In this document: piece by piece, positions 5,496-64,000 of the stretch
Position numbering within the stretch: the stretch's first letter is position 1
Layout of the letters: the number at the start of each line of letters is the position of its first letter
Origin: Beroe ovata
Lineage: Eukaryota > Ctenophora > Nuda > Beroida > Beroidae
DNA: 64,000 nucleotides
NCBI GenBank assembly: GCA_946803715.1
Contig: CAMPET010000001.1
Coordinates: 213,916 to 277,915, forward strand
Direction of reading: 5' to 3'
The notes under the pieces: model-generated
What the model was told of the DNA's origin: nothing
What the model saw: only the letters and a program-made list of their open reading frames with translations
The model's database searches: none
Position numbers and translations under genes: made by a program

Positions 5496-6516
5496 TGTAA
5501 AAAGCTTCAGTCATATTGTGTCTGACTCCCAGCCATTGAGCTATACTGCAAAATCTATCAAGCCTTACCAGCACCTATGCTATCTGTTTTACATTTGTTA
5601 TCAAAATATTCCGTGAATGCGACAATGTGAATCACTTGTAACTTATTCCATGCAATATTAAAATTCAGATTCATTTGTCTTGATCAAACTAGACTTTTCA
5701 TTTAATGTTGTCTTACCAGGATATCGATAAATGCGCGGCGCGTCGAGAATTTCCTACCCACAGGAATTTCCTCAGCTGATGAATTATCATTGATATGAAT
5801 TTGATTTAATTGAAGTGCAGTTTAAAATTAAAAAATAACGCCCCTATTTTGAATCTTAAAATTGATGAAGACATCAATCTGTGACGCGCCGCGCAGCTCG
5901 GTGCGCGCGTCGCAAATAGAAACTCAAAGTGAAACTCAAAGTTGTTGTGAGGCCGAGGAAAAATCGATTTCTTGCGGAGTGAAATCAGTTAATTGGCAAC
6001 AATGATTGCTTGCATGAATATGGTAAGGCTGATTGACTTATTCAGTTAATGCTGTCTAGAAATGCCCATATATATATTGTTATTGAAATCAACATGCATC
6101 TCTTCTACATATCATAATTCGTAAACTGGTGTAGGAACAATAAATGGGGTTCCTAAGTTCATGCATAAATTGGAGCAACCAATACAAAAATATGTCCTTA
6201 TCGTTCTCTTCATAAAAACTTCGATCAACATTCAACAAAGTATAGAAAGGTTTTTATTCTTCACGATTGTTCTTCATTATACATAGCGTCCAAACGTCTT
6301 AAAAGATTCTGCTTCATTGGCTCTTGGATCAATATCTTTGTGCATCGACCATCTACCTCTTTCGACACTGTGCAGCTATTGGGCTTGCTCAGGTAGACAC
6401 CAAGTCAGTGTATATTGGAAGATGGTGCCCTTCCATATCGGAACTCTTCTGGAATTGGAAACATAGAAAGAAATGGGTAAGATTTATTAGATATCCTATG
6501 CAAATATGCAGACTAC
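5496..6516. other. Intergenic region with CpG-rich patches
   Basis: Short GCGCGC-rich patches at about 5733-5745 and 5880-5920 sit in AT-rich sequence upstream of the amidohydrolase and may be part of its promoter or remnants of the foldback families seen at 25 and 48 kb. A minus-strand segment at 6285-6367, after a good acceptor, can encode WSMHKDIDPRANEAESF followed by a short tail and a stop. Alternatively, it could provide a four-residue last exon (CRKR, stop at 6353-6355) for the SIX gene. I could not decide between these readings. Confidence 0.4.
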
Positions 6517-19464: not shown

Positions 19465-21164
19465 ATGATCTACTGGATCTGGGTGGTATTCAAGAGAATG
19501 GGCCCACTCAAAGTGGTAACTATCGACGATATGTGGGACCAAATGAACCGCAGTTTCCTCTATCCCGTGATCATCACATTCGCATACATGATCGATTTCT
19601 CCCACATTGCTGGTACGTTTCCATGGCAACACACACACTGACAACATTACAACAAGACAACGTGGTTACATGACAACTTGTACTGACAACATGATGACAC
19701 GCTATATGACAACGCTGTTAACACCACTCAGGAACTGCTATCAAGTGTTTCGGGTTCAATGCTAACCTCTCGCCATCCTTTGTCGACAACTACTGCTGGA
19801 CTCAGGGCATATACACGATACTTGAGGCTTATGATATGGAGAACACACACGTACCCTACCCAGGTTTGGTCATGAGGTAATCTTCCCGTCAATTATTCCA
19901 TATAAGGCAATGTCTGCTTCTTTATATGGGAGTATCTGCAGGAATCATACCCGAAGATGCCCCGTCGTGTATTCAAGCTGTCAGATATGATGGAGTTAGA
20001 GTGGAGTGTCCTAGAAGTGAGGAAATTGCTCCACCTACTAGGGCTTATCATCGGTGGTATCCGGTAAGATGGCATATCATACTCAAAACCTTATTTTGAA
20101 TATCCATATCTCCAAATAAGGGATGATCGCGTATCAACACCACCATATAAGGAATAATCGCACTCCCCCAGTTTGTCGTTCTCTACTTCTGGCTGCTCTC
20201 TGTTATCTTCTATACCCCGTATATGATGTCAATAGTACTTGGGCTGGGGTATGTGAAGCCCATTGTCAAGATGCTCAGTGAAGCTATACCCGATGAGGAG
20301 GAAATGGAAGAGGAGATGGAAAAAGCCGCGCGCAGCATCAGGCTCAGGTTTATACATAGGATCATAATATACATCTGTAAACTTCAGGGAATCCTTGGAG
20401 ATCCATGCTCTGAGATATCGTCAATTTTGGATTGAATCTAGAGAATGGAGCCAGTTTATGAAGAAATCTGTTATGTATGAAGAACGGTTTTTTTCTCTCC
20501 AACTTTCTGACACCAGCACCCCCTCAGGTTTGACACGTATCTGGACAACAAATCCCTCTACAACATGATCTGCAGTCGAAACTCCATGCTATGCATCATC
20601 CTATTCGCCAAACTCCAATATCTCTTCTTCTCCATCTCAACTCTTGTTCTCACTCATCGACAATTCAAAGTGGGGAACTTCTACTCCTACGGCTTTGATT
20701 GGATCTCCGCAAAACTTCCAGATTATCCCGACAACATGACACTGCCCCAGGAAAAGCTCTTTCCCCGAATGGCAGCGTGCGAGATAAAACGATGGGGAAC
20801 AACGGGGATTGAAATATCGAAAGGAATGTGTGTTTTGCCGCAAAACGTGTCAAACTCCTACCTTTTCCTCGTATTTTGGATATTTCTCATGATGACAATA
20901 GTGGGAAACATCATCGGGATTATCGTGACTCTAGCTCAGTACTTCTGTAAACCGATAGGTTACAAAAAGTTTGTTTACAAGACTTTCTGGAATGATCCCA
21001 AGATTCGAGATCTGTATTGGAATATCGGTGCCTCAGGCCGAGTTATTTTGCATCAATTGGCAGATAACATGCACCCCTGTACACTGGAACGGCTTATTAG
21101 GAAGTACTGGTGGTTGAAGAAACACGAGAAAGTGGAGTATAACGGACATCTTAAGACGGAATAG
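19465..21164 (+). CDS. Innexin (gap-junction channel protein)
   Basis: Five exons: 19465-19612, 19732-19863, 19942-20063, 20172-20347 and 20528-21164, all joins in phase, giving about 404 residues. Four membrane segments fit: VIITFAYMIDF after the N-terminal helix, FVVLYFWLLSVIFYTPYMM, MLCIILFAKLQYLFFSIST, and YLFLVFWIFLMMTIVGNIIG. Extracellular loop 1 has the cysteines of AIKCFGFN and the innexin hallmark YCW (NYCWTQG), plus two further cysteines (APSCIQ, VECPRS). Loop 2 has FPRMAACEIKRWGTTG and GMCVLPQN, the standard innexin pair. YHRWYPF replaces the usual YYQWVPF. It should form intercellular or hemichannels in the plasma membrane. The ATG chosen gives the normal short cytoplasmic N-terminus (TIDDMWDQMNRSF). 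There is a glutamate-rich cytoplasmic loop (IPDEEEMEEEMEK). Confidence 0.92.
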
Positions 21165-26127: not shown

Positions 26128-30385
<4,258 letters not shown>

Positions 30386-33300
30386 TTGGGGATTAATTGA
30401 CCAATTATCTACTCCAGTTATGGGCCGTTTTTCAAGCCTGGGCGTGTGCGTTTCATAGAGATGGGGATATTGTGGATTTGTGTTGTTTTTCTAGATATTT
30501 CTGTAGATCAGTCGTGAAAATTGGTGTCTTTCATCAAAAAGCAGTATCCATAGGATCCATAGATAATTCAACTTTTTATTTAAGAACACTATATTAGCAA
30601 TAATACGTATCTGCAGCTCTCAAGCACAGAGTTCAAAACCGGTTATCCACGTTTATTTGATTTTGTTTGATTGGATTTACCATTTAATTAGATGTATCAT
30701 TTAAAATCTGACGTAATTTGTTTGCAAAATCATCTTTGATGACTGTTTTTAATGATCTGAGAATTTTGTTTTATTAATATGAAGGCTTCGTACATTCATA
30801 AATAAATTTTTATACTGTTTCTGACCGAAGATTTCAAATGATGTGCTTTTACAAATGTCGATAAGCCCAGTTAGCTAAAGCTACATTTCAAACGACTTTT
30901 TTTAGTTTTCAGACTCCATATTATCATCTATTGATGTCTATACACAGCAAGATTTTTCCCACCCCAAAACCTGACACTGATGAATTTGATAAAAATTCTA
31001 ATTGTTTTTGATCTTTGTACATTTATTTTATTACCTTGTAAAATGCCTCTCTTATTGATGACCCAATCCCACTCATTTCCATTGCGAAGTTTCTGCAATT
31101 CTATACACAGAAAACACTTCCCCACAAAAAACACTCTGAAATGTGCAGAGAGATATATATTGTTATTGACCTCGTTAAGAACAATCGCTTTTTTAACATT
31201 CCCTCTTGTAACAAGCAGAAGAGAAAAAATATATAGTAAAAGAATGACCCCTGCCCTCGCCTATATATAAATTGCTAGTTGTGTGTGTGTGTATGTGTGT
31301 GTACTACATATTATTTGCTTTCGCTCGTATCATGTCAATGCTTCTGTTTTAACTGCTGCATGCTCCATCAAGCAGCACATCTGTGCGTTCTCTGCTCCTC
31401 TCCCATTGGTTCTTTTCGAATCACGTGACATGAATGCGTGCATTTTATTGGTGGAACACAACACACAGGAGCCACTGTAGTGTTACTTTCTGATGATAAT
31501 CCACTGTGTTCACGTGACTCAATCCAACCAATCACAGCTCGGCATCTTACAGCCATGTGACATGATTCGGCCAATCCGTAAGTAGGGAACTACACGTGCA
31601 TCTATTGCAATTCACCAGCTTTTCTATTTAAGAGCAATATATGCGTGTGTTAACTGTTATTGAGCGCTTGCATTAGTCACACCTTTCGTCGAGAATAGCA
31701 TTTTAGTGGTCAAAAATCGTATTGATTAAAAGAGGGGCGTTGTAAGTCACTCAGTCCTCTATAATATATATCGCAATCAATCCCGTTTCAATGCCATCAT
31801 ATTCAATGCCATGTATCTTCTGTTTTCAGAGAAAAACGTTTGCCTCATTAGAATCTTCCCCTCAAGTTCCTCATACTCAAAGTCGTAGTCGTATGCTAAG
31901 GTCTTAACCAGCTAGGTTGCTTTTTCTAAAAATAAAGTTGCCGCGTTTCCCCAGCACTCGTTTATCCGATTCAGGCTCCGACTACATGCAGGTTCTTTTC
32001 CCGTCACAACCCTGAAATGACATGTGAAACAATTACCCGACCTAGCCCTGGTTTATTTCGGAACATATGTATAGTCATTGCGGAGCTAATGAGGTTTCGG
32101 TAATTGGATAATTAGCTCGGTAATCGGCTGTATGAAGTGGGATCCCTTCCAAAAACCTATATATTGGTTTTTAAGATCGCTTGCTTTTGTGTGTGACATC
32201 AGCACAAGTCTACTGGTTGGAATGGATATTTCATTTCTGTGCCTATTCCCTCTTGTCTTTCCTCTACCTTTGTTGTTCATATTACGGGAATTTCACATCC
32301 AAAAGCCTTGGATCCCATTCCAAAGTAATTCACTTCTCATTGTAGAGTCAGTAGTAAATTGATACAACCCATTTGAATTGAGAATTGAGAATATTGATGC
32401 AACCCATCTGAATTGAGAATACCTGAGGTCGAGCATATATAAATTGAGAACTTCATTTGGAGAGCAAGGTCCCCCAGCTCCCTCTCTTGTCATCAGACAT
32501 AGCTCTATAACGACTAAACAATACACAGAGCTACTCTGACCGTGATCACCCTGCAGTTATTTATGGAAGTTGTAATCTTGTTAAATCGACATGGCATTAT
32601 CCACCATTTGAGAGGAATCAGTGTGAGGGTCAGAGCATTGTATGCAGAGTGCGTGAAATGTCGTTAGTCAATTGGAACTCCACCAATTCATTTATATGGT
32701 GCAAGGTGTCAGCTGAGCATATATATTCGTGATTTGAGTTCAGCCAGCATTTCTTATATTATTTGAAATCGAAAGTTTGTGACTCGTATATTTCAAAGGC
32801 TGGTCATTTTGTACCTCTTTTTCTTATTTCAATGAGGGCGTGGTCATTTTATCACTCGCATGTGTTCTTCCAATTACTGAAGCACACAAAATGTGTTACG
32901 GTCGTTATGGTTGGTGCGTCATCACCAATTTTAGCTCATGACACCCATCTCTTTTAAACCATGATTTATGTTGTGAAACACGCGTAGGAATGGGATCATT
33001 GATCAATGATTATACCTCTTTATCGCTAAGATATACCCAAAATATATATCCGAATATTCGACCAAACATCCAATCTCTGGAAGTGTCCCAGCGGCCATAC
33101 TCAATTGCCCATGTCATCTCTGTTTTTAAATATCACAGTAAATATACCCTCTGGTATTCATGAAATTAGCTTATTTAGAATTGTTACCGTTGCCCAGGTT
33201 ACGGCAGGAGAAATTCAACACATTTTATCATCATCGTACCTTTGGCCACAGTTTTGGTTCTACCTTACTATCATGGTTTCATATACACCTGATTGCAATG

Positions 33301-38592: not shown

Positions 38593-39675
38593 TAAATTAA
38601 GATGTCACTTTAGATATCAAATCCTCAGCCCTAAACTGTCCATGCGTGGTTAGGCTATCAACTTCTGTGACAACAGAGTGGTGTGAATGGAACCCCACGG
38701 TTTCGATTCCTTGTTAAACATGCCGTACAGCAAGGATCTCCACCGTGTTCGCCAGGCTGGGCGCATATTAACCACTCTGTCTTGACCAAAGTCGATTATA
38801 AATGTCTCGTGTTAGGAACATGCTTTCTTGTGCTTTCTTGTGCTTAGGAACATGCTTTCTTGTGCTTGACAACGGGTGCTTACTGCACAGTGACCTGATA
38901 TACGTCTGATACCGAAGAATATCGCATCTAGATTTCCACGAATTTAGTTCACGTCAAATGAGAAACAAAAACTCATAACCTTTTTCAGTGCGCATTGTCC
39001 TGCAGTTCAACTTTAGTAAATCTTAATTCTATTATAATCACGTGAATTGATCATGACTTGAAATTAAAAGCAAAAAACCTGTTTAAAAGCCGAAAAACCG
39101 GTCAAACAGGTTTCACAACTCACAGTTTGATGACAAAATTTGTCTCCAACTCGAACCACGGGCGACTAATTCAATTTGTAATCAGTGAAAATTTCACTTG
39201 GACGTGGATTAGGGGGACTTGTGCTTGAGGAAGAGAGCGAGATAAGAACACTATATGGTCACAAGTCCCTCAGACTACAAAGTCTCGGTGAGGGACTTGT
39301 GAAGTGTGAGTTAGCCACTTGGTCTCACGGTCGCGACTTCACTCAGTTTGGTTGGATGGAGGAGAAGGAAGATGAGGGACCTGTGCCCTTGAGCATTTTG
39401 TGAGAAATTAAACTTTACGGTTTTGTGTTTTATCTCTACAGTGAAAATCATGCTATAAAACAGGCGACCTCTTGTCCGTTCCATCATTATTGTAACCGTT
39501 TTCCCGAGTTTCTCAATTTATAATCCGATTATTTTTACTCCAAATCTTCTAACTTTTCTACCCCTTGTTCCAGCAATTACAAGATGAAAATCTTCTCATT
39601 TCTCTAACCCTTACTCCAGCAATTACAAGATGCAAATCTTCTAACTTTTCTAACCCTTGTTCCAGCAATAACAAG
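38593..39675. other. Intergenic region upstream of the aminotransferase
   Basis: No exon is recognised. There is a small duplication CTTTCTTGTGCTT(AGGAACATG) at 38821-38870 and a repeat of CTAACCCTTGTTCCAGCAAT with ACAAGATG about three times at 39550-39680, the last copy containing the aminotransferase ATG. These copies may affect the position of an initiator or splice acceptor. Confidence 0.45.
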
Positions 39676-42600
39676 ATGTCATCATTCCGAGCAGCAGTTC
39701 AAAGACTCTCATCCTCAACTCCTCACTTTCTGAGTACTAGATCAGCGTCGTCTACGACCACTAGTAGCCGAGGTCTGGTCTCCGCCCAACCACAGGAGGA
39801 AACCATCGATCCCCAGCTTCCTTTTTTTGGTTAGTTTTGGGAATTCAATTTCTCAACAACTCCAGAAAAGTTCCAATTCGTGGTCCAAGATGTTGTAGGG
39901 TCAAGAGAATGAACAGCTACTCGGGTTTTAGTGCAAGATAATCGTGCTAATTTGGTGCATTTTATACGTCTTCCGCTAAAAATTCGCGCTCCTCACTCCT
40001 CACTATTCCAATCTCGCTCCTCATTTTCCTTACTAAAGTCCCCTGTATTTGCCTCTGCACTTTTCCCATTTACCCAGACTACGAACCGCCTGTCTACGAC
40101 GGACCATCCCGGGAGGAGGTCATCAAGAAGAGGGCTGCCAATGTGAACCCTGCTGTCACAAGACAGACGTACTACAAGGATCCACCACTTTTCGTAGCTG
40201 GTGAGTTTTCAATTACGGACCGAAAATTACCAATGATCATTGTAATTTCAAAACTGTCTGCACTTTTGTAGTGATCACATTCGTCGTCGTCATAGTGATG
40301 ATTCCAGACTCCAGAGAATGTCGGGCATGCGGCCATCATAATCTCATTTCTCACGCGCAGGGAAAGGACAGTATTTGTACGATGATAAGGGGAAACGCTA
40401 TCTCGATCTACTTGGGGGAATTTGTACTGTATCAGCCGGGCACAACCATCCAAAGGTTTGCAGAGAGGAAAACACAAAATCGAAGATTCCCCAGATTGAA
40501 ATTCGAGATTTAGACTATAGCACCTTTTCGACAAGCTTATATCTCGGGCCGTAGATCCAAAGAATGGTCACCAAAACAATAATCTTCACATTTAGGTGAA
40601 CGCTGCGATATCAGACCAAATGTCACGTGTTACTCACACATCTAATGTGCTGGTCCATCCGAAAATCAGCGAGTACTCAGAGGCTATGATCGAGAAATTC
40701 CCGAAAGATAGTGAGTCCTGAGTTCCTTGGACGATCATTAGAATCACCGAAATATATCTGGCGAATAGCCAAGAAATCACCCATGCATTCTGCCTTGTGT
40801 CATGAAATGACGACGTACACAGATAAGCGCGCATCACGAGGGACCTATCCCCTTAATTTTTTGACAAGTTGCCAAATAAAAAAGCCTTGAGTCTAATGCA
40901 CTGATTCCACGTCTCACACAGGTAATCTGAGTGTGGTATATTTCTGTAACAGTGGATCTGAAGCCAATGATTTGGCTATGATGATGGCACGAGCTTATAC
41001 TGGGTACCTCAACATTGTCGGTGAGTGGTCGGGAAAATCGAGTGGTGGATTGATAAGCGAGATTTCCTTGGCCATCGATAACAACCAATCACGATATATA
41101 GTGACCATGATATAGATAGTGGCCCACTGTGAGTAGTGACCCTTGTGACCATGTCACGTGACCCAACATCTCCATCCACCAGGACTAAGAAGAGCTTACC
41201 ACGGAGCAAGTGCAGCTAATCTCTCACTGACAGCCATGCCACTCTACCGCCATGCGTCCATGCCCATCACTAACATTTCCCAGACCATGTCACCCGATGT
41301 TTACAGAGGACTGTGGGGTGGGAGCCATTGCCGGGATGGACCATGTCAGGTACTATAGGTCACTGTGTATGTGTGTGTGTGTGTGTGTTTACCAATTGCT
41401 TGGTTGGGGTAAAAATCTGAGGAGATATTCTTATTCTCACTCCTGTACACTCAGGCAGACAGGGCGTGTGACTGTGCACCGGACACATGCATGGCCACGG
41501 GAATGTATGCTGATCAGTATCGTGATCACCTGCACACTCTGTGTCCTGCAGGCAGAGGACTGGCCGGATTCATTGCCGAGGGAATGGGGGGAATGACTGC
41601 CGCCATTCAGGCGCCTAAAGGTACGGATAAGCTCGATACCTACTTCGATAGGAAACCGGGACATACCTACTTTAGATCAAAACGAATTTTCATGCTCATT
41701 GCTCAAACGCTTTTTTTATAAGCTAGAAGTTTTTGCTTTGAGGTCCGTCACCCCCAGGTTTTTATAAGGAAATATTCGATATCACCAAATCGTATGGTGG
41801 TGTCAACATCATGGACGAAGTGCAGACTGGATTCGGACGACTTGGGACACACTATTGGGGATTCGAGTATCACGGTGTTAAGCCTGACATCATCACAGCT
41901 GCCAAGAGTGAGTTGCGTTGGTGCCATCTCTTTAGTCTTTACAAAGCAATAACTTCACGTGTGTCGTGTTAGTCAAGCTTGAAACTATCCACCGTTACCA
42001 TGGTAACCACTCATAACCAGGCATTGGTAACGGCTTCCCAATGGCAATGTGCGCGACAACTCCGGAAATTGCGGAGGCGTTCGCAAACAGCTGCCTCCAC
42101 TTCAACACATTCGGCGGAAACGCCATCGCCAGTGCCGCCGGTCTCGCCACTTTACAAGCAATAGACGAGGACGGTCTCATGGAGAACAGTCATGTGGTAT
42201 GTTCTTGCTTTTTCCTATTTCTTGTTCTCGAGTCAGGAAGATTCTTCTTTTCCTTTCTTACACGATGATATCAACATGTTCTGTTAACCTATGTATTTTA
42301 CTGCTTCACTGAACAGTAAAGCAGTTCATGAATATTGATATCCATGCTAACACAATTTTCCTTACACTAGGTAGGAACTCACATCCTCGAGGCTCTCAAC
42401 AAGCTGAGGGTGAAGCATGATATCATCGGGGATGTGAGGGGTAAGGGATTCTTCATGGCTGTGGAGTTTGTAGAGTCCCAGAGCACAAACAAACCCATCC
42501 CCAATTACCATCTTAATGCCATCGTGGAGAGATTCAAGGTATAGTGCCGCGTTGATCTACGTACCTTCATTATTGAGTGTAGCATTACGAAATGCCACAC

Positions 42601-43184
42601 AAGAAATGCCATATTATGAAATGCCACCCTCCCCCAACTCCTCTCTCTTACCCTCAGGATCTTGGTGTGGTTGTCGGTAAGGGAGGTCTCTACCTAAACT
42701 GCTTTAGGATGCAGCCCCCAATGTGTGTAACCCTGGAAGATGCTGATTTTATCATTCAAGTAATGGATCAGGTGAATATTTATTTTCGAACATTTTGCGG
42801 GTGAATTGGGCAACCTCACAGTCTTTTGTACGGGAAAATATAGCAATCCGACTTCATTTTTACCAATTACTTGCAAGACTTTTCTCTGAATGGGTTTCTG
42901 GTGTCAAGCTGATAAGATATCATATCAGCAATACCAGCTTCAGATATAATTGATTTATATCGTCTCACTGATATAAAGATATAATATTGATTGGAGTCTA
43001 TGGAGGAGAAATCACGTGACCATCGTGTTTTTCTGTCGTATCTTATCGGAAGTCCGTCATATGCTGCAATTTGAGTGAAGCTGAATCAGGTGGTGCCGAT
43101 AATTAACCATGTTTCCAGGTATTCACAGAGTACAGTTTGGGAAAACTCGATTTGGAGGCGTTTAATCCAAACCCTGCAAAATAA
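39676..43184 (+). CDS. AGXT2: AGXT2-family class-III aminotransferase (mitochondrial)
   Basis: Twelve exons: 39676-39829, 40078-40200, 40361-40455, 40596-40710, 40922-41020, 41183-41349, 41455-41620, 41758-41907, 42021-42196, 42371-42538, 42658-42771 and 43119-43184, giving about 530 residues. The first 40 residues are Arg/Ser/Thr-rich and fit a mitochondrial presequence. Family marks are [48 protein letters not shown] and the PLP lysine in [14 protein letters not shown] (Ser where vertebrate AGXT2 has Gly after the lysine). HFNTFGGN and [14 protein letters not shown] follow. Known substrates of AGXT2 are alanine/glyoxylate and beta-amino acids such as beta-aminoisobutyrate. Related omega-aminotransferases act on taurine. 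It lies 410 bases upstream of the Xsc-like gene, same strand, suggesting a linked role. Confidence 0.9.
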
Positions 43185-43595
43185 GGAAATAACTGGGAAG
43201 TGTCAGAATATCTGCTGACAAGGAAAAAGTTCGTAGTTGGGCGTCTGAGGAGAAAGTAAAGACTAAGAAATTTGAGAACTTTGAGAATTTCAAGATGAAA
43301 AGACAGTGAATAAGGATTTTTAGCTCGAGCGAAATGTTGAATAAACAGTCAAAGGACTCCGATTGAGATATTGTTACTTTTATGATTTTTGTGTTTCGTA
43401 ATTCGACATTCAAACTTATTTCTATTTCTTGGATCAAATTAACTTCTTTAATCTAATCAGATCGCTAGAAAAAGATCTTTCAATTCAGATTACTTGTTTC
43501 CTTCAATTCCGATTGCTAACTCCCTTCCTAGAAAATTGCTGCTTATTTCTTTTTCGATCACATCTAACTCTCCTCCCCCAAACGTAGCAGTTAGT

Positions 43596-46500
43596 ATGGC
43601 AAGTGTAGCAACTAAACTACGGAATGCAGTCTCCCCTCAAGTGTGTAGTAGGATGAAGAGTGCGCTTCCCGCAACTCATGGGCTCCCCAAACTTCAGCCA
43701 CAGAATGAGGTAAAACTGACACCATTATCGCAAAACATCTTGACACCGCTTCGCTTGACATCACTCCGCTTGACACAACTTTCCAAACAGCGCTACTCTG
43801 AAACCGTTTCGCTTAACACCGCTTCCCTCCATAGCACTTCGAGCTAAAGTCACTCTCAGACCTATTGACATTTGACTAATTGGGTCATTTGATTTTGACA
43901 CCGCTTCTCTTGAGATCAATGCCCAATTCGTTGACATCACCCCTTCTTGACACCCCTTCTCTTGACACTTCTTTTGCTTGACACCGCTTCTCTCGAATTG
44001 ACACCACTCTTAGCTGACACCACTCTCAGCTGACACCACTCTCAGATCACATGAACACTCAATCCCCAGTCAGAGGTTCCGGACCACTTCACAAAACCGG
44101 TCAAGATGATGGCATCTGAAGCTCTGGTTGAAACTATGGTACGACAGAAGGTTAACACTGTCTTTGGTATCGTGGGATCAGCTTTCATGGATGCTCTGGA
44201 TCTTTTCCCAGAGGCAGGAATACGATTTCTACCAGGTTGGTTACCAGCTAAAGCCGCTATGGTTTCACCAAAGGCTGAATCAAACCATTCGATCTCATCA
44301 AATCACCCTCTCATCCGTACGCATTTCCTCACTAACACCATCCAATCGTTACCATGGTAACACCATGTCCGGATAGTAACCATGGCAACCACCCTCTGTA
44401 GTACAACATGAGCAGAATGCAGCTCACATGGCAGACGGCTATTCTAGGATCAGTGGAAAACATGGTGTCTGCACCGCCCAAAACGGTCCTGGTGTCACTA
44501 ACTTCGTGACAGGTTCGTTCAGATGTATCCCAACTCATACTGACGTTTTTTGGACTCAATCCAACTGAGTTGACTCAGTTGCCATAGCAACATGCACATT
44601 GCACACCCTAACGACCCACCATCTCACCCAGGTGTGGCGGCAGCATACTGGGCCCACTCACCCGTCGTGGTGTTCTCTCCTGAGGCTGGTTCAATGGGAG
44701 TTGGTCATGGAGGATTCCAGGAGGTGGACCAGCTACCCCTATTCAAGGTGGGACATGATACGAATTGTGTGGGCATAGGTTCAAACCCCCTGCAGACATG
44801 GATAAACCGAGTACAACTTTGCTCAATATATGGTGAAGCATCGCTCGATTTGCTCTTCCCATAATGCGGTAGAAGAAGTTTACTGCAGCAAATCCAAGTT
44901 GATTTGCTGAGCACAGAAGCACAAACATTTCCTCGACTACTCTAACTCCATTTCAGCCAATCACAAAGTATCAAGGGCATGTCAACAATCCACTAAGAAT
45001 GTCAGAAATTGCAAATCGAGCATTTGACGTGGCCATGAGTGAGAGGGGACCTACTCAGATCAACGTTCCTCGTGACTATCTTTATCATGAAGGTCAGAGA
45101 TGCAGATATATAGTTTCCCCAAATTTTACAATATTGCGTGCAATGGTTGGAATGTCTAATACCTACCTGCTTTTTACGGGCAAAATCCCGCGATTTCTGC
45201 AGAATATAACGAACTCTTCTAATATCAATATCAATCTCTGCACCCAAATCATCACGCTGAATCACCCACAGGAATGTACGAGATAGCAACCCCTAGAGTG
45301 GTCGAGAAGGGGTGTGGGGGGCCACAGTCAATCCTTGCAGCAGTCAACATGATCAAATCTGCCAAGAATCCTGTGATACTGGGTGAGTGATTGGCGGATG
45401 ATCGGTTATCATTCCTAATTCAGACTTGTAGTTTTAACCGTCACACACTTGATAGTTGATACTCAACTATATGATATTGAAAACTTCAATGATATTGAAA
45501 ACTGATATTGAACCAATCAAATTTGTTAGCATGTCACAGACTCCCAGCAGACAATTCACACTCCCTTTACCCTTTAGCCGGAGGAGGCGTCACGATGTCT
45601 GGAGCACAAGATGAGGTGTCAGAGCTAGCTGCCCTCCTCTCTGCCCCTATTGCAGTGACATATCTTCACAACGATGCCATGCCTTCAGATGATCCGCTCT
45701 ACGCTGGACCTCTCGGTAAGAGAGAAGTTCTGGACGATTAAAAAATTGTTTGTTATCATGATATTTACCATGGTACCATGTGCATTGTGCAATGGTAACA
45801 GTTGTCTTGGTAACAGTTGCCTTGGTAACACATCTTCTCAGGTTACCAGGGATCCCAGGCAGCCATGTACAGCATGAGGGACGCTGACGTGGTCATTGCA
45901 CTGGGGACGAGACTCAGTCCGTTTGGCACTCTGCCTCAGTACGGAGAAGAATACTGGCCGAGCAATGCTAAAATCATCCAGGTTAGCGAATCGAAGTTGA
46001 GCAGGTTCCAATTTATAATGTCATATATCAATCGAAAATCCAAGTAACTAAACATTTTTCAAATTGGTTCAGATTTCCAACTCTCTCTCCATCCAGGTTG
46101 ATACAGATGAGAGGAGAATTGGTCTCACTAAGAAGATCGATATTGGCATCTGTGGGGATGTGAAACTTGCTGCTAAGGAGTTGAGTCAGAAGTTGAGGGC
46201 GAGTGGCGATCTCGAGTGTAACGAAAACAGAACTGCAAGACTGGAGAAATTCTCCCAGGTATCTGTCAAAACTTGACAGCTCCAGGATAAAACCTCGACG
46301 ATACAGAAAACAAACCACTGACAGCTTAACTAGTCAATTTTCAATCCCCGCATCTATATAAACTGTCGTTTCTATTAAATCTGATCTCGTATCATCGCAG
46401 CTGAAAGCTGAGTGGACAGAAAAGCTGGATCACATCACATTCTCCACTGTGGAATCAACCTCAGGGAGAATCAGACCTAGACAGGCACTGCGGGCTTTGG

Positions 46501-47499
46501 AAAAGGGATTAGCTCCTGATAGCATAGTCTCTACGGATATTGGGAATATTTGCAGTGTATCCAATAGCTACCTCTCGTTCAAGTGGGTAAACATTGTCTA
46601 TTGAAAATGCTGTTTTCGTCTTAGGATGTTGTTGAAGATTCATGAAGTTTGAGGTCAAGTTGCCTTTTGATCTTACAGTAATTTTAACTCTTTTTAGACA
46701 CAAAGGACCAAGCATGCTCGCTGCCATGACATTTGGGAACTGTGGCTACGCATTCCCTGCTGCAATGGGTGCTAAAGTGGCTGCTCCAAACCGAAATTGT
46801 GTGGCATACTGTGGAGATGGCGCTTGGGGAATGCAGCTCAATGAGGTAATTGTTTCTAAACAACAATTAGCATCAACAATTAGCATGACAACACAATATA
46901 AACAACTGTGGTAAAGAGAATCTCTAATCACGGTTACACTTTCAGGTGATGACGTGCATCAGAGAGAATATTCCTACCACAGCTGTCGTGTTCAACAATG
47001 GACAATGGGGTGCAGAAAAGAAGAATCAAGTTCTTTGGTTTGGAGACAGGTCAGCAGAATCAATAGACGATTTCTTTTGTCATAGGTACCTGATTACCTT
47101 TATAGTGAGTGTCTAATATTCTTATGATTCCCTAGATATGTTGGAGTTCAGCTGCATAATCCATGGAGCTATGCAGACATAGCTAAGTCCATGCATGCTG
47201 AGGGAATCACATGCTCTCATTTGGACCAAGTCACTGATGCCATAGAGTAAGTTAACATTTGTATTTGAAAATGCCCAAGGTCTGGGCTAAGCTCAATTCT
47301 TCTATAACATCAATTATTTAGGCAAGCCAATAAGAACCAGGCTGAAGGAAAAACAACAATCATTGAAGTCTTGGTGACTAAAGAATTGGGAGATCCATTC
47401 AGAAGGGATGCCATGAAACTTCCAAACAGACACCTTGAAAAATACAGGAACACATGCCAAACTGAGGAGAGTGGAACTGGACAACCAACTGATTTATGA
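43596..47499 (+). CDS. xsc: Sulfoacetaldehyde acetyltransferase (Xsc), ThDP enzyme
   Basis: Fourteen exons: 43596-43709, 44070-44235, 44402-44512, 44632-44747, 44957-45092, 45272-45382, 45578-45715, 45842-45981, 46097-46258, 46401-46582, 46698-46845, 46946-47049, 47136-47246 and 47322-47499, all in phase, 638 residues. A 45-residue basic extension precedes the domain and may target mitochondria. Xsc marks are [20 protein letters not shown], the ThDP glutamate in [27 protein letters not shown] and [34 protein letters not shown] and [12 protein letters not shown] follow. The GDG...NN cofactor motif is present (GDGAWG to NN). Bacterial Xsc turns sulfoacetaldehyde and phosphate into acetyl phosphate and sulfite. 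HACL1/oxalyl-CoA decarboxylase is a more distant alternative: its signature residues differ. Standard introns show it is a resident animal gene, not contamination. Confidence 0.85.
43725..44060. repeat. Degenerate TTGACACCRCTT repeat in Xsc intron 1
   Basis: Many imperfect copies of TTGACACCGCTTCTC / CTGACACCACTCTCAG run up to the acceptor of exon 2. The last three copies are nearly identical (GCTGACACCACTCTCA). No coding sense is evident. Confidence 0.7.
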
Positions 47500-57900: not shown

Positions 57901-59511
57901 ATAAGCATTTGGCACTTTTATTGGGTACAAAATAACAAATAAAAGTGCGTGGATGAATATTGAAGCAGTATATCATATTCAGCAACTTACGCGTTCGACC
58001 AATCGATGCCAAAAACAGTATCGTGATGCACAGCAACTTCAGAAACGTAGCCATGAGCATAGTGCTGATGTAGTGTTGTTGCTGTCACATGCTGAAATAA
58101 TTGAATAGAACCTAAAAAACCTAATCCACGCAATGTACAAACGTAAGGAAACCTATTTTCCAGGATACAAGCATTGGCATGAGGATGTTCGTCCTGATAC
58201 AACTCCACTCGAGGCGGGAATGGCGTGGCTAGTCAACGCAAAACTGAAATCTGGGACCGAATTCCTCGGTAGAGACGCTCTACTTGCCCAAAAGAAAAAC
58301 GGGATCAGGAAACGACTTGTATGTCTTAAGGTTAAGAGGTGAGTTCGAAAAAAAAGGAAAGGCAAGAGTCCGTTAGCAAATCTTAGAGTTTTGCGATTGG
58401 AGTATTGTCAAGCAATCATACCTGTGAAATGTCTAATCTTAGATGACTAGTTAATGATGCCTAATTAAAAGCGTAGGGGAAGGGTTCAATTTTATATTGC
58501 CTTCTCAGCTTTTCGACTCGTAACTTCTACTCTAGTTCTAGTTTCGATACTAATTTTAATTCTAATTTAACGCTTAGTCTAATTAAATTCAAACTCAAAC
58601 TCTCCGATCAATTTCCTCAATTTTCAGCCCCGTTCCACTTGTTACACTGGAAACTGTTTATCGGGACGGTGAAATAGTCGGATATGTGTCAAGGACAGCG
58701 TACGGATACAGTGTTGGGTGTAATGTAGCCTGGGGATACGTCAATCATCCAGACAAAATCAACTTGGATTGGGTTAAATCTGGAAATTATCAGGTTATTA
58801 GTGATTCAAACCCTTAACACCAGCTTCATCATGACATTCATGGAATCGGATTTCGTGGAATGAAACATAACCCACCATACCAAGTCACGCATGTTTTTCT
58901 GTATTTTATGTAACGCGCGATTAATGTGATTAATAAATTACTGCGCGCCGAATTGTATTACGCGCCGCGCGCATAATTTATTTGGCAACAATCCAAGTAT
59001 TCCCCGTCAAGTTGCAATTGTAATGCACGACAAAAAACATGTTTTCTGTCGTACTATAGAGAGTAGAGCCGTTAAACGAAGCTACATGAGAAAACGTCAA
59101 ACTAAACGCGGGTACTCCTTAACTCATGAAACGTCAATAAATGCAAACGCCGTACAGCGACGAAAGTAGGACATAATCGCATCGATTATCGTCTTGAGCT
59201 GCTCTTGATTTCATATTATGCAGCTTGACATAAACCACTTTACGGTTATTTGAAGCTGTTGTCTAACGTTGGCTGTGATCTGTATAATATATTTAGGCAG
59301 TATCACGACTCGAGCTCTTGACTCGCTTCTCGATTTTCATTGGTCGCATCCACATCACATGAAAAATGCTTATTGTCCCTTCCCCCTATAAAATAACCTC
59401 TGCCTATGAATTCAGGTCGAGTGTATGGGCGAGTTGTATGATGCAGAAGTGTCCCTAGCAGCCCCCTTTGATCCTAAGAATCTGCGAGTCAAGGGACAGT
59501 ACGATTCCTAA
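48968..59511 (+). CDS. SARDH: Sarcosine dehydrogenase, mitochondrial
   Basis: 22 exons, including 48968-49114, 49211-49343, 49424-49543, 49634-49719, 49805-49913, 50021-50116, 50250-50329, 50469-50577, 50724-50836, 50964-51096, 51239-51325, 51471-51605, 51777-51877, 52075-52217, 52414-52558, 52703-52833, 53057-53166, 53366-53505, 53956-54118, 58164-58338, 58628-58793 and 59416-59511; 905 residues (human 918). The FAD motif is [18 protein letters not shown], and the histidine of [11 protein letters not shown] is the covalent flavin site of the family. Next are [26 protein letters not shown] and [11 protein letters not shown]. The C-terminal folate-binding T-protein half has [25 protein letters not shown] and [16 protein letters not shown]. 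It converts sarcosine to glycine plus a one-carbon unit on tetrahydrofolate. The exon 10 acceptor (CCCCAAG at 50957-50963) was chosen because only it keeps frame. Intron 19 (4 kb) contains a nested gene. Confidence 0.95.
53765..53948. repeat. Minisatellite of CACTTGACGCACGTGTGTC units in SARDH intron 18
   Basis: Five to six units of about 33 bases (CACTTGACGCACGTGTGTC, then CTAGCT or CCAGCT) end in CACACACACGGTGTCGCAG, the acceptor of exon 19. Each unit has a GCACGTGTGT word. Confidence 0.85.
54545..54940 (-). CDS. Second copy of the terminal exon of the nested LamG gene
   Basis: An open minus frame after an identical acceptor (ATCAG before GACCCGGAC) reads [20 protein letters not shown], continues [20 protein letters not shown] and ends in a shorter SGQDGN-type repeat and a stop at 54545. 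It would splice in the same phase as the exon at 55805-56254 and so could be an alternative 3' exon, giving a protein of about 280 residues. It keeps an open frame despite many substitutions, which favours function over a dead copy. Confidence 0.55.
   Translation of the reverse strand, partial: DPDTYLSGKIAQMFWIDACLSDDQITLIYEDGRDHGIEILQSLFLTSGPTLLLDWVRILNSEFYGSVTLEEDIGENEDESSQDGDTGQDGNSGQDRNSGQDGDTDRGTEGEGTAIPREPGCINIKHMIQSD
55805..58054 (-). CDS. Secreted LamG/concanavalin-like domain protein nested in SARDH intron 19
   Basis: Exons on minus: 57991-58054, 57257-57487, 56948-57099 and 55805-56254, all in phase, 298 residues. Exon 1 encodes a signal peptide ([19 protein letters not shown]). 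Exons 2-4 form a LamG/pentraxin-like jellyroll: [56 protein letters not shown] and [20 protein letters not shown]. Such folds bind glycans or proteins outside the cell. The tail is an acidic repeat of (S/T)GQDGN/GQDRN units encoded by an 18-base minisatellite, ending PREPGCIDT. The gene lies wholly inside one SARDH intron, opposite strand. Function is unknown beyond a secreted lectin-like or adhesion role. Confidence 0.75.
55860..56015 (-). repeat. Coding minisatellite ([12 protein letters not shown]) in nested gene
   Basis: About eight 18-base units of the type ATCCTGACCACTGTTCCC on plus encode (T/S)GQDGN, GQDRN or KQDGN on minus. The other exon copy (54.6-54.7 kb) has only about four to five units, so repeat number differs between the two exon versions. 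Confidence 0.85.
57671..57789. mobile_element. Short MITE-like inverted repeat
   Basis: AACGTGACTCCTGGT and ATATCACGTTAAT form the left arm; the right arm is ATTAACGTGATAT then ACCAGGAGTCACGTT. About 33 bases pair with very few mismatches around a centre of about 50 bases that itself contains TGTGACG and CGTCACA. It lies in intron 1 of the nested gene. No coding capacity. Confidence 0.75.
58794..59415 (+). other. Last intron of SARDH
   Basis: No nested exon seen. It contains a GCGCGC-rich palindromic patch at about 58913-58975 (AACGCGCGATTAAT, TACTGCGCGCCGAA, ATTACGCGCCGCGCGC) that recalls the centre of the foldback elements, and ATTGG plus CACATG words near 59338-59362. Confidence 0.45.
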
Positions 59512-59953: not shown

Positions 59954-60332
<379 letters not shown>

Positions 60333-61281
60333 AGCTTAAGCTAAAAGTGTTGTGGTTAAGCGCACTGGTTATTTCTGAGTATGAACTGAGAGGAATTGAG
60401 AGGAACTGAGTATGAACTGAGAGGAAGTTGAAAATGAAACCATGAAGAAAAAGAGGCTGATTTATGAAAGAACTTCTTCGAAAGTACAGAAACTGATAGT
60501 ATCTCGAGACAAATTACAAATCTTATCGCAATCAAACTGCACTTAAGAAGATTGCATGCTAGCTCTAATGGAGCTGCTGAATGATGAGAAGAGATTGTAA
60601 CGGTTGAAATAAGCAAATGCAATCCTCCCATTGGCTGTAAAACTACAGCTCACAACAAACTGTTGTGGAGTGCTGCGATCAGTTGCTGCGAGCAGTTTTC
60701 CTGACCTCTGATTGGTGCAAAGCTCTCACTCGCAAACCGAGGGATGTGACAACAGCAAACGTTTGTTGGTTTCTATGACGACTGATGTGATAATCGAATG
60801 AAGGGCCGTTGGGACTGAACGAGATGAGTATTTTGTATCAGAGTGCTGACTCTAAAGAAGTGGGTAGGTAATGGAGAGCTTGGAGTTCAAAGAAACAAGT
60901 ATGTTCTTGATGAAGGTATAAAGCACAAGTTTCCATACATTTTCATACACAATACATACTTCATAGACTCTAAAGCTATCTGACCAAAAAATAAATTGTC
61001 TGAGGAAATTAAACTTAAACTGGAAAAAGCTAAAATTGATGTTATCTGAAAATTATATACGGCACTGACTACATTAAAAGTAAAACATTTAAATTTATCT
61101 CAGCTGGATTATCATAAAATGAATTAAGATAATTTAATTTCCCTCTTCCGGAAAAACTTGAAAGTTTTCTATCTGATAATATCTGTATAAACACGGTTCT
61201 TTGAAAAATAATTGTGAAGCTTCCTGTACCACCAAGTCCAAATGAAGCAACAATTTGGTTGTGTTGCTAGGAGGTTGCTCA
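60333..61281. other. Intergenic region between DYNLL and CBS
   Basis: This contains a small tandem repeat (GAACTGAGAGGAA / TGAGTATGAACTGAGAGG) at 60372-60425 and CCAAT-type boxes (CCCATTGGCTG, CTGATTGGTGC) at about 60627-60720 that are well placed for the DYNLL promoter. The rest is AT-rich and holds the CBS 3' flank. No further gene. Confidence 0.5.
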
Positions 61282-64000
61282 TCAATCCTCGATGTGGTTG
61301 TTATGGTGATGGAACCCGTTGCTAAGGGGAGATTTTGCTCTCATGATGTGATTGAGGATGTCAATCCGGCTGATAATCCCAAACACTACATCCTTCTCCG
61401 AGAAATCACCGTCCTCCGAATCTGAAATTGGAGTGAGATTAATTAGTTTCCCGCTTCCAGAGCATGAGTGATGGGAATTGGGAGTGATAAATGAGTGATG
61501 GATGTGTGATTCAGTTTCATGGGTTCAGGGCAGGGAATTGTGTGGGATTGGGCATCCTATTCCTAGCATGTGAGGAGGAGAGACAAACAGTCAGAGATTC
61601 GTCCTTCTTCTTGGTACAGCTTCGAATAACACGTATTCCACGCATGTTTGCATGCTCACAGCTGCTATCACGGGCATTATTATCGATTTCCCAACAACTG
61701 CAAGAGCACAAAGCCGCCTTCCCTTTTTCAGGACCAGCGAAAAAGATCAGCTCACACACAAACTTTAGAGTATAGGTAACTAGCTGTTATCAAAGCTAAT
61801 ATAAGTGTCTGATAACGCACACCGTGGCATCATTTGATCACGTGTCCGCCGGAAGACTAGCAATATCCGACATGGGTGACGTCACACGTGACGGAGTCAG
61901 CGGTTGTCTAGGTGACATGAGGTAGCCCAGGAGACACATGGCAGTGACAGTTCCAATTTGGATTTCCCGGGTTTGGAGCGTGCCGTCGTCTGTGTCTGAA
62001 ATGCGAACTAACGGCTTAGTTTACACTGATAACAGGTGGCTCATGAACTATGCTTCAGATATTCGTTGTGAGGGACAGGGATGTTAGAGGAAAGTGTGAT
62101 GAGGGCGGTGATGGAATATCCGTGCAAAAACATGAAATAGTAATGCTATGCTCGGTAAAAACAAGAACACTTACAGTATTGCCATCCCTTGGTAACGATA
62201 ACGAAATGGTCGTGATCGAGCATCTTGGAAACGGTGGACAGTGGTGTGTCAACTGTTACCTGAAACATGGTAATGACCGCGTTACCATGGTGACACTGTT
62301 GGTAACCATGGTGACACTGTTGGTTACCAAGGAAACATACACACAATTCCATGAAATTGAACCATGTTATAGTGTTACCTTCTGGAATTGATTGTACATG
62401 ACTTTGGAGACTGGGTCCTGGGCTTCTGCCTTGCCCGATGTAATCTTCCTCATCATATTATGGAGTGTTACCGCACCTGAGCCAGGAATAAGTTATGATA
62501 ATGGACACTGGACATTTACATTTGGGGATTCAAATCCCAAATTTATGGTTTTGTCGGGGAGGGGTCCCCCGGTCCCAAACTTTTCCAGTCACGGGACAGC
62601 AATTGACCAATGACGACAGCAATTGGACAGCAATAGGACAGCAATTGACCAATGACGTTGTCACGTGATCAAAATCATTTCGGACCCCTCCCCAAAAATA
62701 CCATTCAACAATTATACATGTCACCTCCACGTTGTGAGAACAACTGCACATGTCACGCGTTACATGTCACGCGTTACATGTCACGCGTTACATGTCACGC
62801 GTTACTCTAACCTAGAATAGTGCCGTCACTGTCCACAACGGGCAGCTGGTCCACGTTCCTCTTGCTCATGATCTCAATAGCGGTCTGACACTTCATCGTG
62901 GGGGATACGATGATAGGATCGGTCAGGGTGATCACTGATACGGGCAGTTTGTGCCACCTGCGACAACGTGGGAAGTGAAATGTGTGGTTCTGTTTTTCGG
63001 CATTTTTTTCGGACGAAAGTTCTAAAAAGCAAGAACTTGGTTCTTGGAGAAATGAGAAGTGAGAGCAATACTGACCATTGTTGATTCTCGTCTTCCTTTT
63101 CCGAGACGGACAGAAATCCCTGTTCAATCATCCAATCATCGGACAGATACTTTGTCATGTAGTTCCGTACTGAGTCCGGGAGCATTACCACAACTCGTGC
63201 CCCCTCCGGGAGCGAGCGAGCTTCCTGATTGGTGGGTTGTTAGGAGGAGAGTTTCCTGATTGGTGGATTGTTAGAATGATGGCTTCCTGATAGGCTGATT
63301 TCTCTCAAATTTGAGCTCCCGATCGGTTCGAAAATTTTGTACTCTACCGATCAGAGCTCCCGGATCCTTGACGTGTTCCTGACAGACTCGTCACGGGTCT
63401 CTCTTACCTCAATAGCACAGTACATGTTGCTGCCGCAGCTTCCACCACACAGTAAACCCTCTAGCCGTATCATTTTCCGTGCCATCAAGAACGAAGGTTC
63501 ATCATCACTCTTTACCCATCTGAGGATCATAGTTTGAGGGGGTGTTTTAGAGATCACATTCTTAAGAAAATCATGAAGATACTGAGCTATAATTGCGTCG
63601 ATGATCGGTTAAGCCTCCCTTTTTCGGAGTGAAAATCACAGGATTCAAAGAACAAAAATGCGATGTTCGAACTCACTTGTCCACTATACTCTGATCTAGA
63701 ACTGTGGGGATGAAATCGTACCCCACTCCCTCCACATGATACATTTCCCCCTCCCTTTCCTTGTTCAGAGACTCGGGAACTGCCAGACTCGACCCTTCTG
63801 GATCAACTCCAACAACCTGGAGAATTGTATGCAAACTCAAAGAAAAAGGTCCGAAATTTCAAATAGAAACCACTAATTTGTAGGGGGTTCCACGAAATCT
63901 CACTTACAACTATATCGGGAATTTTCTCTTTCAGTTTCCTGGCTACTCCGGATACTGTACCACCAGTTCCAGCTCCTATTACCACCATGTCTATCTTTCC
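61282..64000 (-). CDS. CBS: Cystathionine beta-synthase, C-terminal two thirds (5' part outside window)
   Basis: Exons on minus: 63908-64000 (open), 63677-63816, 63408-63519, 63076-63224, 62812-62957, 62379-62476, 62175-62259, then either 61838-61995 or 61282-61421. The catalytic part has the PLP-phosphate loop [47 protein letters not shown] and [32 protein letters not shown] follows. The regulatory CBS-domain pair starts at [18 protein letters not shown] and ends in [19 protein letters not shown] condenses homocysteine and serine to cystathionine, the entry to cysteine and taurine synthesis. Two homologous last exons in the same phase suggest alternative C-termini. The heme-binding N-terminus is not visible. 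Confidence 0.92.
61838..61995 (-). CDS. CBS: Alternative last exon of CBS
   Basis: After a TTTCAG acceptor in the same phase as the distal exon, it reads [20 protein letters not shown], then [13 protein letters not shown] and on to a stop at 61838. This aligns with [20 protein letters not shown] of the exon at 61282-61421 and with the last strand and helix of the second CBS domain. It has its own stop and therefore would replace, not precede, the other exon. Confidence 0.6.
62746..62806. repeat. 15-bp tandem repeat ACATGTCACGCGTT beside a CBS donor
   Basis: Four to five perfect units of GTTACATGTCACGC lie immediately intronic of the donor at 62811. The unit reads GTAACGCGTGACAT on minus and so offers donor-like GTAAC words at each repeat. 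Confidence 0.9.
63221..63295. repeat. Tandem TTCCTGATTGGTGG units containing the CBS exon acceptor
   Basis: Three units of about 31-36 bases (TTCCTGATTGGTGG(G/A)TTGTTAG, last one TTCCTGATAGG). On minus each contains the acceptor-like (A)TCAG before GAA; the first copy is the real acceptor at 63225-63227. Confidence 0.8.

Follow-up and report, generated by a model that had tools for sequence, protein, structure and literature searches.

The window, the whole 64,000-nucleotide stretch of DNA analyzed here, contains an AGXT2-type aminotransferase gene followed on the plus strand by a gene for sulfoacetaldehyde acetyltransferase (Xsc):

39676-43184, plus strand: AGXT2-type class III PLP aminotransferase gene, 12 exons, 530 aa, spliced open frame to the stop
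39676-39829, 40078-40200, 40361-40455, 40596-40710, 40922-41020, 41183-41349, plus strand: aminotransferase exons 1-6
41455-41620, 41758-41907, 42021-42196, 42371-42538, 42658-42771, 43119-43184, plus strand: aminotransferase exons 7-12
43185-43595, plus strand: intergenic spacer, 411 bases from stop to ATG
43596-47499, plus strand: Xsc gene, 14 exons, 638 aa, spliced open frame to the stop
43596-43709, 44070-44235, 44402-44512, 44632-44747, 44957-45092, 45272-45382, 45578-45715, plus strand: Xsc exons 1-7
45842-45981, 46097-46258, 46401-46582, 46698-46845, 46946-47049, 47136-47246, 47322-47499, plus strand: Xsc exons 8-14

In the spliced models, GT-AG borders flank all 24 introns of the two genes. 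An earlier note on this DNA had reported the two genes head to tail on the plus strand, and this observation is confirmed, with both models at the claimed positions and on the same strand. The genes do adjoin, but the spacing is 411 bases counted from stop to ATG and not the 410 given in that note. The spacer carries AATAAA at 43340-43345, which we infer to be a polyadenylation signal. An innexin gene, belonging to an animal family, also lies inside the window.

The second protein is a true Xsc by family assignment, and its catalytic activity is predicted. Against the NCBI equivalog model TIGR03457 it scored 802.8 bits (curated cut-off 676.4), and its Xsc subfamily match reached 840.2 bits (E 7.8e-253), far beyond chance. 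The best non-Xsc NCBIfam model gave 349.4 bits, below its own cut-off, and the other TPP models stayed under half of the Xsc score (25 of the 53 families shown). HACL and oxalyl-CoA decarboxylase chains scored at most 156 bits among the best 60 matches listed; the model scores and this chain comparison rule out either identity, so that the earlier description of the protein as Xsc-like holds. With 63 bacterial Xsc rows as the reference, 169 of 181 invariant residues are kept, as are 226 of the 256 positions at 95% conservation. Identity to bacterial Xsc is about 60% (e.g. P0089 61%, P0093 60%), and the nearest named relative among the matches listed is from the ctenophore Mnemiopsis (78%). A [10 protein letters not shown] block and a GAEKKNQ block are both intact, and the end of the protein is encoded as follows:

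47322-47499, plus strand: last Xsc exon, with the block [14 protein letters not shown] and the C-terminal tail [10 protein letters not shown]

In a 12-row alignment, the tail form ES.TGQP[TV]D[LM] was found in all seven eukaryotic-type rows and in none of the five bacterial-type rows. Splitting of sulfoacetaldehyde is the function of the family, and the sequence evidence for it in this protein is strong.

Two trees place this Xsc among its relatives; neither includes HACL, oxalyl-CoA decarboxylase or acetolactate synthase rows. The careful tree, built from 35 of the 120 listed proteins and 10 of the 80 bacterial loci, separated 36 eukaryotic-type rows, the window's included, from the 10 bacterial rows at 100/100. 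For the quick tree, we combined 52 of the 120 listed proteins with 14 of the 80 bacterial loci, each represented by a single sequence, and added two outgroup rows, both other TPP enzymes, which separated from the Xsc rows at a support of 100. With this outgroup, two small groups (4 and 6 rows, some of them eukprot) fell outside both the bacterial and the main eukaryotic-type groups; therefore, the quick tree does not show a single eukaryotic Xsc clade. The ctenophore-type and Rhopilema-like rows grouped together at 97 in the quick tree (20 rows) and at 94/91 in the careful tree (19 rows), under the starred level.

By its sequence, the aminotransferase falls with animal AGXT2, where it is part of a separate, ctenophore-type branch. 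Among the matches listed, eleven proteins are 65-80% identical to it, followed by animal AGXT2 at about 50%. We built a tree from 37 of the 120 listed proteins and 12 of the 13 bacterial hits, excluding P0001 and trimming P0121 to its first 505 residues, both being long proteins with repeated segments that seem to be doubled gene models. The 12 rows from bacterial xsc neighbourhoods, a stand-in for Tpa/Toa with no assayed Tpa or Toa among them, separated from all 39 AGXT2-type rows at a support of 100, in a tree that carries a long-branch warning for the bacterial rows. On this separation and the identity of 25-30%, we reject kinship with the aminotransferases near bacterial xsc. The class III assignment of the earlier note stands, and the tree places the enzyme with mitochondrial AGXT2. 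No aminotransferase named as Mnemiopsis appeared among the 120 matches listed.

Nine columns are specific to the branch (12 rows of the branch compared with 19 other animal rows), including a Gln to Gly change in the EPIQ loop:

41455-41620, plus strand: exon 7, loop AEGMGGM against AEPIQG or similar in animal AGXT2; Gly296 replaces Gln
41758-41907, plus strand: exon 8, DEVQTGFG motif and, in TAAK, the putative PLP Schiff-base lysine K356

In class III aminotransferases, such a lysine forms the Schiff base with PLP. A second AGXT2-type gene in the genome, the intronless C112, falls in the same clade and has the same loop Gly, so that the loop change is not peculiar to the Xsc neighbour. AGXT2 has been described as a mitochondrial, broadly specific enzyme that prefers D-beta-aminoisobutyrate, a beta-amino acid, as its donor, and the part of that account available to us does not mention activity on taurine (PMC6470580). 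Taurine is a candidate substrate of the window enzyme in the route proposed below.

The earlier note had suggested looking in the genome for a sulfite oxidase and a user of acetyl phosphate, and both were found. The sulfite oxidase gene is represented by three PF00174 exon matches with a CAGNRR motif and by a cytochrome-b5-like HPGG exon. The acetyl-phosphate user is an intron-bearing acetate kinase:

C17:56081-58342: acetate kinase gene, 8 exons, 423 aa, 7 introns, all GT-AG

Its protein scored 361.3 bits against TIGR00016 (cut-off 293.4) without reaching the narrower equivalog models. At 65 positions, 109 of the 120 listed homologues show an invariance of 99% or more, and the protein agrees with them at 61; Mnemiopsis ACHWQZ_G005533 is 62% identical to it. 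The gene is unlinked to the pair (C17 versus C1), and in Mnemiopsis, too, acetate kinase appears unlinked to Xsc, judging from the lengths of the contigs. Exon-by-exon six-frame searches of the genome, which short or split genes can escape, detected neither phosphotransacetylase nor phosphoketolase, leaving Xsc as the sole acetyl-phosphate maker detected among the enzymes searched. Acylphosphatase, which could waste acetyl phosphate, was likewise not found by the six-frame search, with a real risk of a miss. A PF02776 search of the genome detected no N-terminal TPP domain besides that of Xsc, and hence did not show the 2-hydroxyacyl-CoA lyase usual in animals. The genome has five TauD-domain matches, and the TauD route was set aside on the two that were read, both of which resemble carnitine-pathway hydroxylases by eye.

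The Arg/Ser-rich or basic N-terminal extensions noted earlier agree with our composition counts:

39676-39795, plus strand: aminotransferase codons 1-40, 4 Arg, 12 Ser, no Asp/Glu; possible mitochondrial presequence
43596-43703, plus strand: Xsc codons 1-36, 5 Arg/Lys, no Asp/Glu; possible mitochondrial presequence

The first acidic residue comes no earlier than residue 41 in the aminotransferase and residue 38 in Xsc. All three of the aminotransferase, Xsc and acetate kinase have basic, acid-free N-termini, and these stretches may be mitochondrial presequences. The acetate kinase row P0243, which may be cut short, has no N-terminal extension.

From these data, we propose that the two enzymes of the pair probably catalyse steps one and two of taurine dissimilation in the ctenophore, likely in mitochondria, and feed acetate kinase and sulfite oxidase. 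Taurine, which is the sulfonate analogue of beta-alanine, would donate its amino group to pyruvate or glyoxylate through the action of the AGXT2-type aminotransferase, leaving sulfoacetaldehyde, which Xsc, with thiamine diphosphate and phosphate, would convert to acetyl phosphate and sulfite. Acetate kinase, whose gene is present, would then use acetyl phosphate to phosphorylate ADP, yielding acetate and ATP; the sulfite oxidase, likewise encoded, would oxidize sulfite to sulfate. With these two enzymes in the same genome, the bacterial-type route would be closed from taurine to acetate, ATP and sulfate. On balance, taurine would be disposed of with one ATP gained by substrate-level phosphorylation, its nitrogen leaving as alanine or glycine, its carbon as acetate and its sulfur as sulfate.

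The neighbour might instead be an ordinary AGXT2 acting on beta-aminoisobutyrate, beta-alanine and glyoxylate, with an active Xsc receiving sulfoacetaldehyde from another enzyme or from the diet (isethionate, hypotaurine) and the adjacency being accidental. The placement of the aminotransferase among animal AGXT2 and at a great distance from the enzymes neighbouring bacterial Xsc fits this reading, as does the finding that only 12 of the 80 bacterial Xsc loci have a class III match in the available flanks, some of them shortened by contig ends, so that Xsc seems not to require such a neighbour. However, in the whole 77.8 Mb genome class III aminotransferases were matched in few places (at least four regions), and one of these directly adjoins Xsc on the same strand. 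Assuming 15,000 genes, such a neighbour would arise by chance at about 2 x 4 / 15,000 = 0.05%, or 0.13% with ten such genes; with so few class III regions, accidental adjacency is unlikely. Moreover, the C112 copy could fill the AGXT2 role, and the loop is altered in the branch. We therefore consider an ordinary AGXT2 beside an unrelated Xsc unlikely, though deserving of some weight.

It is still less probable that the Xsc-like protein now catalyses a different thiamine-diphosphate reaction (e.g. as a decarboxylase, carboligase or acyl-CoA lyase), having lost sulfonate activity. Twelve of the 181 positions invariant in the 63 bacterial rows do differ, and a substitute role is thinkable given that no other PF02776 domain was found, but the TIGR03457 cut-off is exceeded by more than 120 bits, the two conserved blocks are intact, and acetate kinase and sulfite oxidase are encoded in the same genome. 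Both Xsc and acetate kinase are chiefly familiar as bacterial enzymes, which might suggest that the genes are bacterial contaminants or were recently transferred into this one genome. This is contradicted by the 24 GT-AG introns of the pair and the seven of acetate kinase, by the relatives of Xsc and acetate kinase in Mnemiopsis and by the position of Xsc in the careful tree, and the window also holds the innexin gene; we give this explanation almost no credence. The earlier view that the host is an animal genome is supported.

What is new here is an intron-bearing acetate kinase, also present in Mnemiopsis, and a sulfite oxidase in the genome that holds the Xsc pair. We found no report of an animal Xsc in the open-licence literature searched. 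To our knowledge, animals are usually taught to be unable to cut the C-S bond of taurine, which is excreted or left to gut bacteria, and acetate kinase is not usually credited to them. A nuclear, intron-bearing Xsc with its aminotransferase neighbour, acetate kinase and sulfite oxidase makes the C-S rule directly testable in a ctenophore. If our proposal is true, a major animal osmolyte would be broken down with a yield of energy, acetate kinase would enter animal energy metabolism, and taurine in gelatinous plankton would reach the marine sulfur cycle partly via the animals themselves, not only via bacteria. A wider reading, to which we would give somewhat less than an even chance, is that ctenophores, and by extension perhaps the first animals, have a mitochondrial, ATP-yielding taurine-to-acetate pathway in which an AGXT2 relative was recruited in place of Tpa, and that most other animals have lost it.

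Among the closest known systems is the bacterial Tpa (or Toa)/Xsc/Pta/AckA dissimilation of taurine, which shares with the ctenophore the proposed chemistry, a true Xsc, an adjoining class III aminotransferase and an acetyl-phosphate user in the genome. Here, in contrast, the genes are nuclear, intron-bearing animal genes, the aminotransferase is of the AGXT2 type, the sulfite oxidase is of the animal kind, and the location is possibly mitochondrial; with no phosphotransacetylase found, the product would be acetate and ATP and not acetyl-CoA directly. The window aminotransferase resembles animal AGXT2 in its tree position, its identity of about 50%, and its retained CRD and C.C....C loop, whereas its separate branch, the nine branch-specific columns and the adjoining Xsc set it apart. 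TauD-type taurine degradation has been proposed in cnidarian larvae (PMC12225738); that proposal likewise concerns taurine breakdown in a non-bilaterian animal but by an oxygenase route, and the main text does not mention sulfoacetaldehyde or Xsc. The Xsc-like proteins of other eukaryotes (the jellyfish Rhopilema, and plankton such as Symbiodinium and Paraphysomonas), known as annotations only, share their half of the tree with the window Xsc, and the aligned Rhopilema and Symbiodinium rows share its C-terminal tail.

The window (C1:213916-277915 of the Beroe ovata assembly, which comprises 77.8 Mb in 534 contigs) carries two adjoining genes, whose exons were read directly.

39676-43184, plus strand: class III aminotransferase, 12 exons, 530 amino acids
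43596-47499, plus strand: sulfoacetaldehyde acetyltransferase (Xsc), 14 exons, 638 amino acids

All 24 introns are of the GT-AG type and 75-360 bases long, and the 411-base spacer between the genes contains an AATAAA (43340-43345). Three near-identical repeats, each ending CCAGCAAT(T/A)ACAAGATG, span 39560-39690; they extend as far as the aminotransferase's start codon, which puts three similar acceptor-plus-ATG sites in succession.

With 802.8 bits, the downstream protein passed the 676.4-bit cut-off of the sulfoacetaldehyde acetyltransferase equivalog model; it reached 840.2 bits with the Xsc subfamily model and missed the cut-off of the best acetolactate synthase model (349.4 versus 538.35 bits). 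Among the 60 solved chains listed, those of 2-hydroxyacyl-CoA lyase (HACL) and oxalyl-CoA decarboxylase reached at most 156 bits, and the earlier assignment to Xsc rather than to these families is thereby borne out. The protein retains 169 of the 181 positions invariant across 63 bacterial Xsc rows (drawn from 80 loci) and 226 of the 256 conserved there at 95%. Its closest named relative among the matches listed is Mnemiopsis leidyi ACHWQZ_G001664 (78%). The more thorough of two trees covered 46 rows (the window protein, 35 eukaryotic-type proteins, of which ten bear an organism or eukaryote-source name, and ten bacterial proteins). In it, the 36 eukaryotic-type rows were split from the bacterial ones at 100/100, an eight-row clade including the window and Mnemiopsis was supported at 100/100, and this clade clustered with nine Rhopilema-like and two further rows at 94/91. 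The faster tree, whose 69 rows included two outgroup enzymes, gave a support of 97 to this last grouping but left two small groups (four and six rows) unresolved relative to bacteria and the other eukaryotic-type rows. Many near relatives are uninterrupted frames on ~2 kb contigs, consistent with transcripts. We read Xsc as a eukaryotic gene that ctenophores and a scyphozoan, at least, have in common, rather than as a stray bacterial sequence. The window Xsc was the sole match in a genome search with TPP_enzyme_N, in which neither 2-hydroxyacyl-CoA lyase nor ILVBL was seen, although split exons may hide others. Two weak TPP matches lie on another contig, C217.

The aminotransferase, judged by its sequence relatives, is AGXT2-type. 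Among the matches listed, eleven rows at 65-80% are followed by animal AGXT2 at ~50%, and in a 51-row tree these eleven form, with the window protein and another gene from this assembly, a 13-row clade (support 100) on the AGXT2 side. We call this branch ctenophore-type because two of its members come from this genome. This other gene is possibly a retrocopy and forms a clade with two of the listed relatives (P0124 and P0126).

C112:73059-74483 (also L029:2389-4026): AGXT2-type gene, intronless, single exon

A class III aminotransferase match occurred in the available flanks of 12 of 80 bacterial xsc loci, with 25-30% identity to the window protein; in the tree, 12 such xsc-neighbouring aminotransferases lie across a branch of support 100 from the AGXT2 side with its ctenophore-type clade, at a place where long branches meet. 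The earlier note had proposed a two-gene taurine degradation module and compared it with bacterial Tpa/Toa; given the position on the AGXT2 side, far from the bacterial xsc neighbours, the comparison would hold at most in the reaction, and not in descent. When 12 ctenophore-type rows were compared with 19 other animal rows, 112 columns were conserved in both and nine differed, one of them being a Gly in the branch where AGXT2 has Gln (loop AEPIQG). The form EG[MIV]GG was found in nine of the ten branch proteins tried (the tenth did not match the search pattern), and the C112 gene also carries the Gly. Among sulfonates, taurine is the counterpart of beta-alanine. Considering this analogy and AGXT2, which an excerpt of PMC6470580 describes as mitochondrial and broad in specificity with D-beta-aminoisobutyrate preferred, taurine is a plausible amino donor for the window enzyme.

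An acetyl-phosphate-using enzyme and a sulfite oxidase, both sought as partners of the pair, are encoded elsewhere in the genome. A profile search with PF00871 matched four places on contig C17, unlinked to the pair on C1, and splicing gave an intact gene.

C17:56081-58342: acetate kinase, 8 exons, 423 amino acids

It passed TIGR00016 (361.3 bits, cut-off 293.4). Of the 65 positions that hardly vary across 109 other homologues among the matches listed, it retains 61; we take these homologues as mostly bacterial because the named ones are. The closest match listed is Mnemiopsis ACHWQZ_G005533 (62%); three further rows at 54-57% and a partial row at 48% look like near kin, and the remaining matches listed (37-43%) are bacterial wherever an organism is named. 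The sulfite oxidase, on contig C172, has three PF00174 matches, the CAGNRR motif and a cytochrome-b5-like HPGG exon. Domain searches of the genome, which can miss short intron-cut genes and which detected acetate kinase despite its introns, gave no match for phosphotransacetylase, phosphoketolase or acylphosphatase. One cysteine dioxygenase and seven PLP decarboxylase matches (five above cut-off) leave open that taurine might be synthesized here too.

The best account of these genes is taurine dissimilation of bacterial chemistry, probably in mitochondria, in which the AGXT2 relative, the eukaryotic Xsc, acetate kinase and sulfite oxidase would turn each taurine into acetate and sulfate with a gain of one ATP. 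The sequences show the genes, their families and, for Xsc and acetate kinase, a Mnemiopsis relative; substrates, compartment, direction and physiological use are what we infer. Mitochondrial presequences often contain Arg/Lys and lack Asp/Glu. The N-termini show this composition over 36-40 residues in Xsc and the aminotransferase and over 28 in acetate kinase; that of acetate kinase resembles a presequence. The main rival, in keeping with the AGXT2 kinship, takes the aminotransferase for an ordinary AGXT2 and has sulfoacetaldehyde formed in another way. On the other side stands the adjacency: class III aminotransferases match at least four genome regions (C1, C112, C12 and C128), and assuming ~15,000 genes, the chance that one of the two Xsc neighbours is such a gene is ~2 x 4 / 15,000, or ~0.13% with ten such genes. 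This low chance, computed after the pair had been seen, supports a functional link.

Other genes of the window are as follows.

4602-5510, minus strand: Amidohydro_2 protein, above Pfam cut-off
20511-21161, plus strand: innexin, above Pfam cut-off
29866-30393, plus strand: protein kinase, C-terminal part, above Pfam cut-off
58240-58840: candidate glycine-cleavage-T-type domain, by-eye likeness
60000-60340: dynein-light-chain-like gene, by-eye likeness, no NCBIfam match
61300-64000, minus strand: partial cystathionine beta-synthase with PALP and CBS domains, continuing past the window end

A Pfam scan of ten window pieces placed three above cut-off and one kinase below it, and six had no match. 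The cystathionine beta-synthase part, a sulfur-amino-acid gene ~14 kb downstream of xsc, covers positions 169-440 of 457 in TIGR01137; its 322 bits fall short of the 510 that the model sets for the whole protein.

Among the open-licence papers that matched, titles and abstract openings contained no description of an animal Xsc (sulfoacetaldehyde, taurine, animals, ctenophores) or of an animal acetate kinase (metazoans, eukaryotes, ctenophores). In the excerpts at hand, Tpa and Xsc are assigned to a bacterial sponge symbiont (PMC10356861), Xsc transcripts are counted in a eukaryote study (PMC5012681), and a TauD-type taurine breakdown is proposed for cnidarian larvae (PMC12225738).
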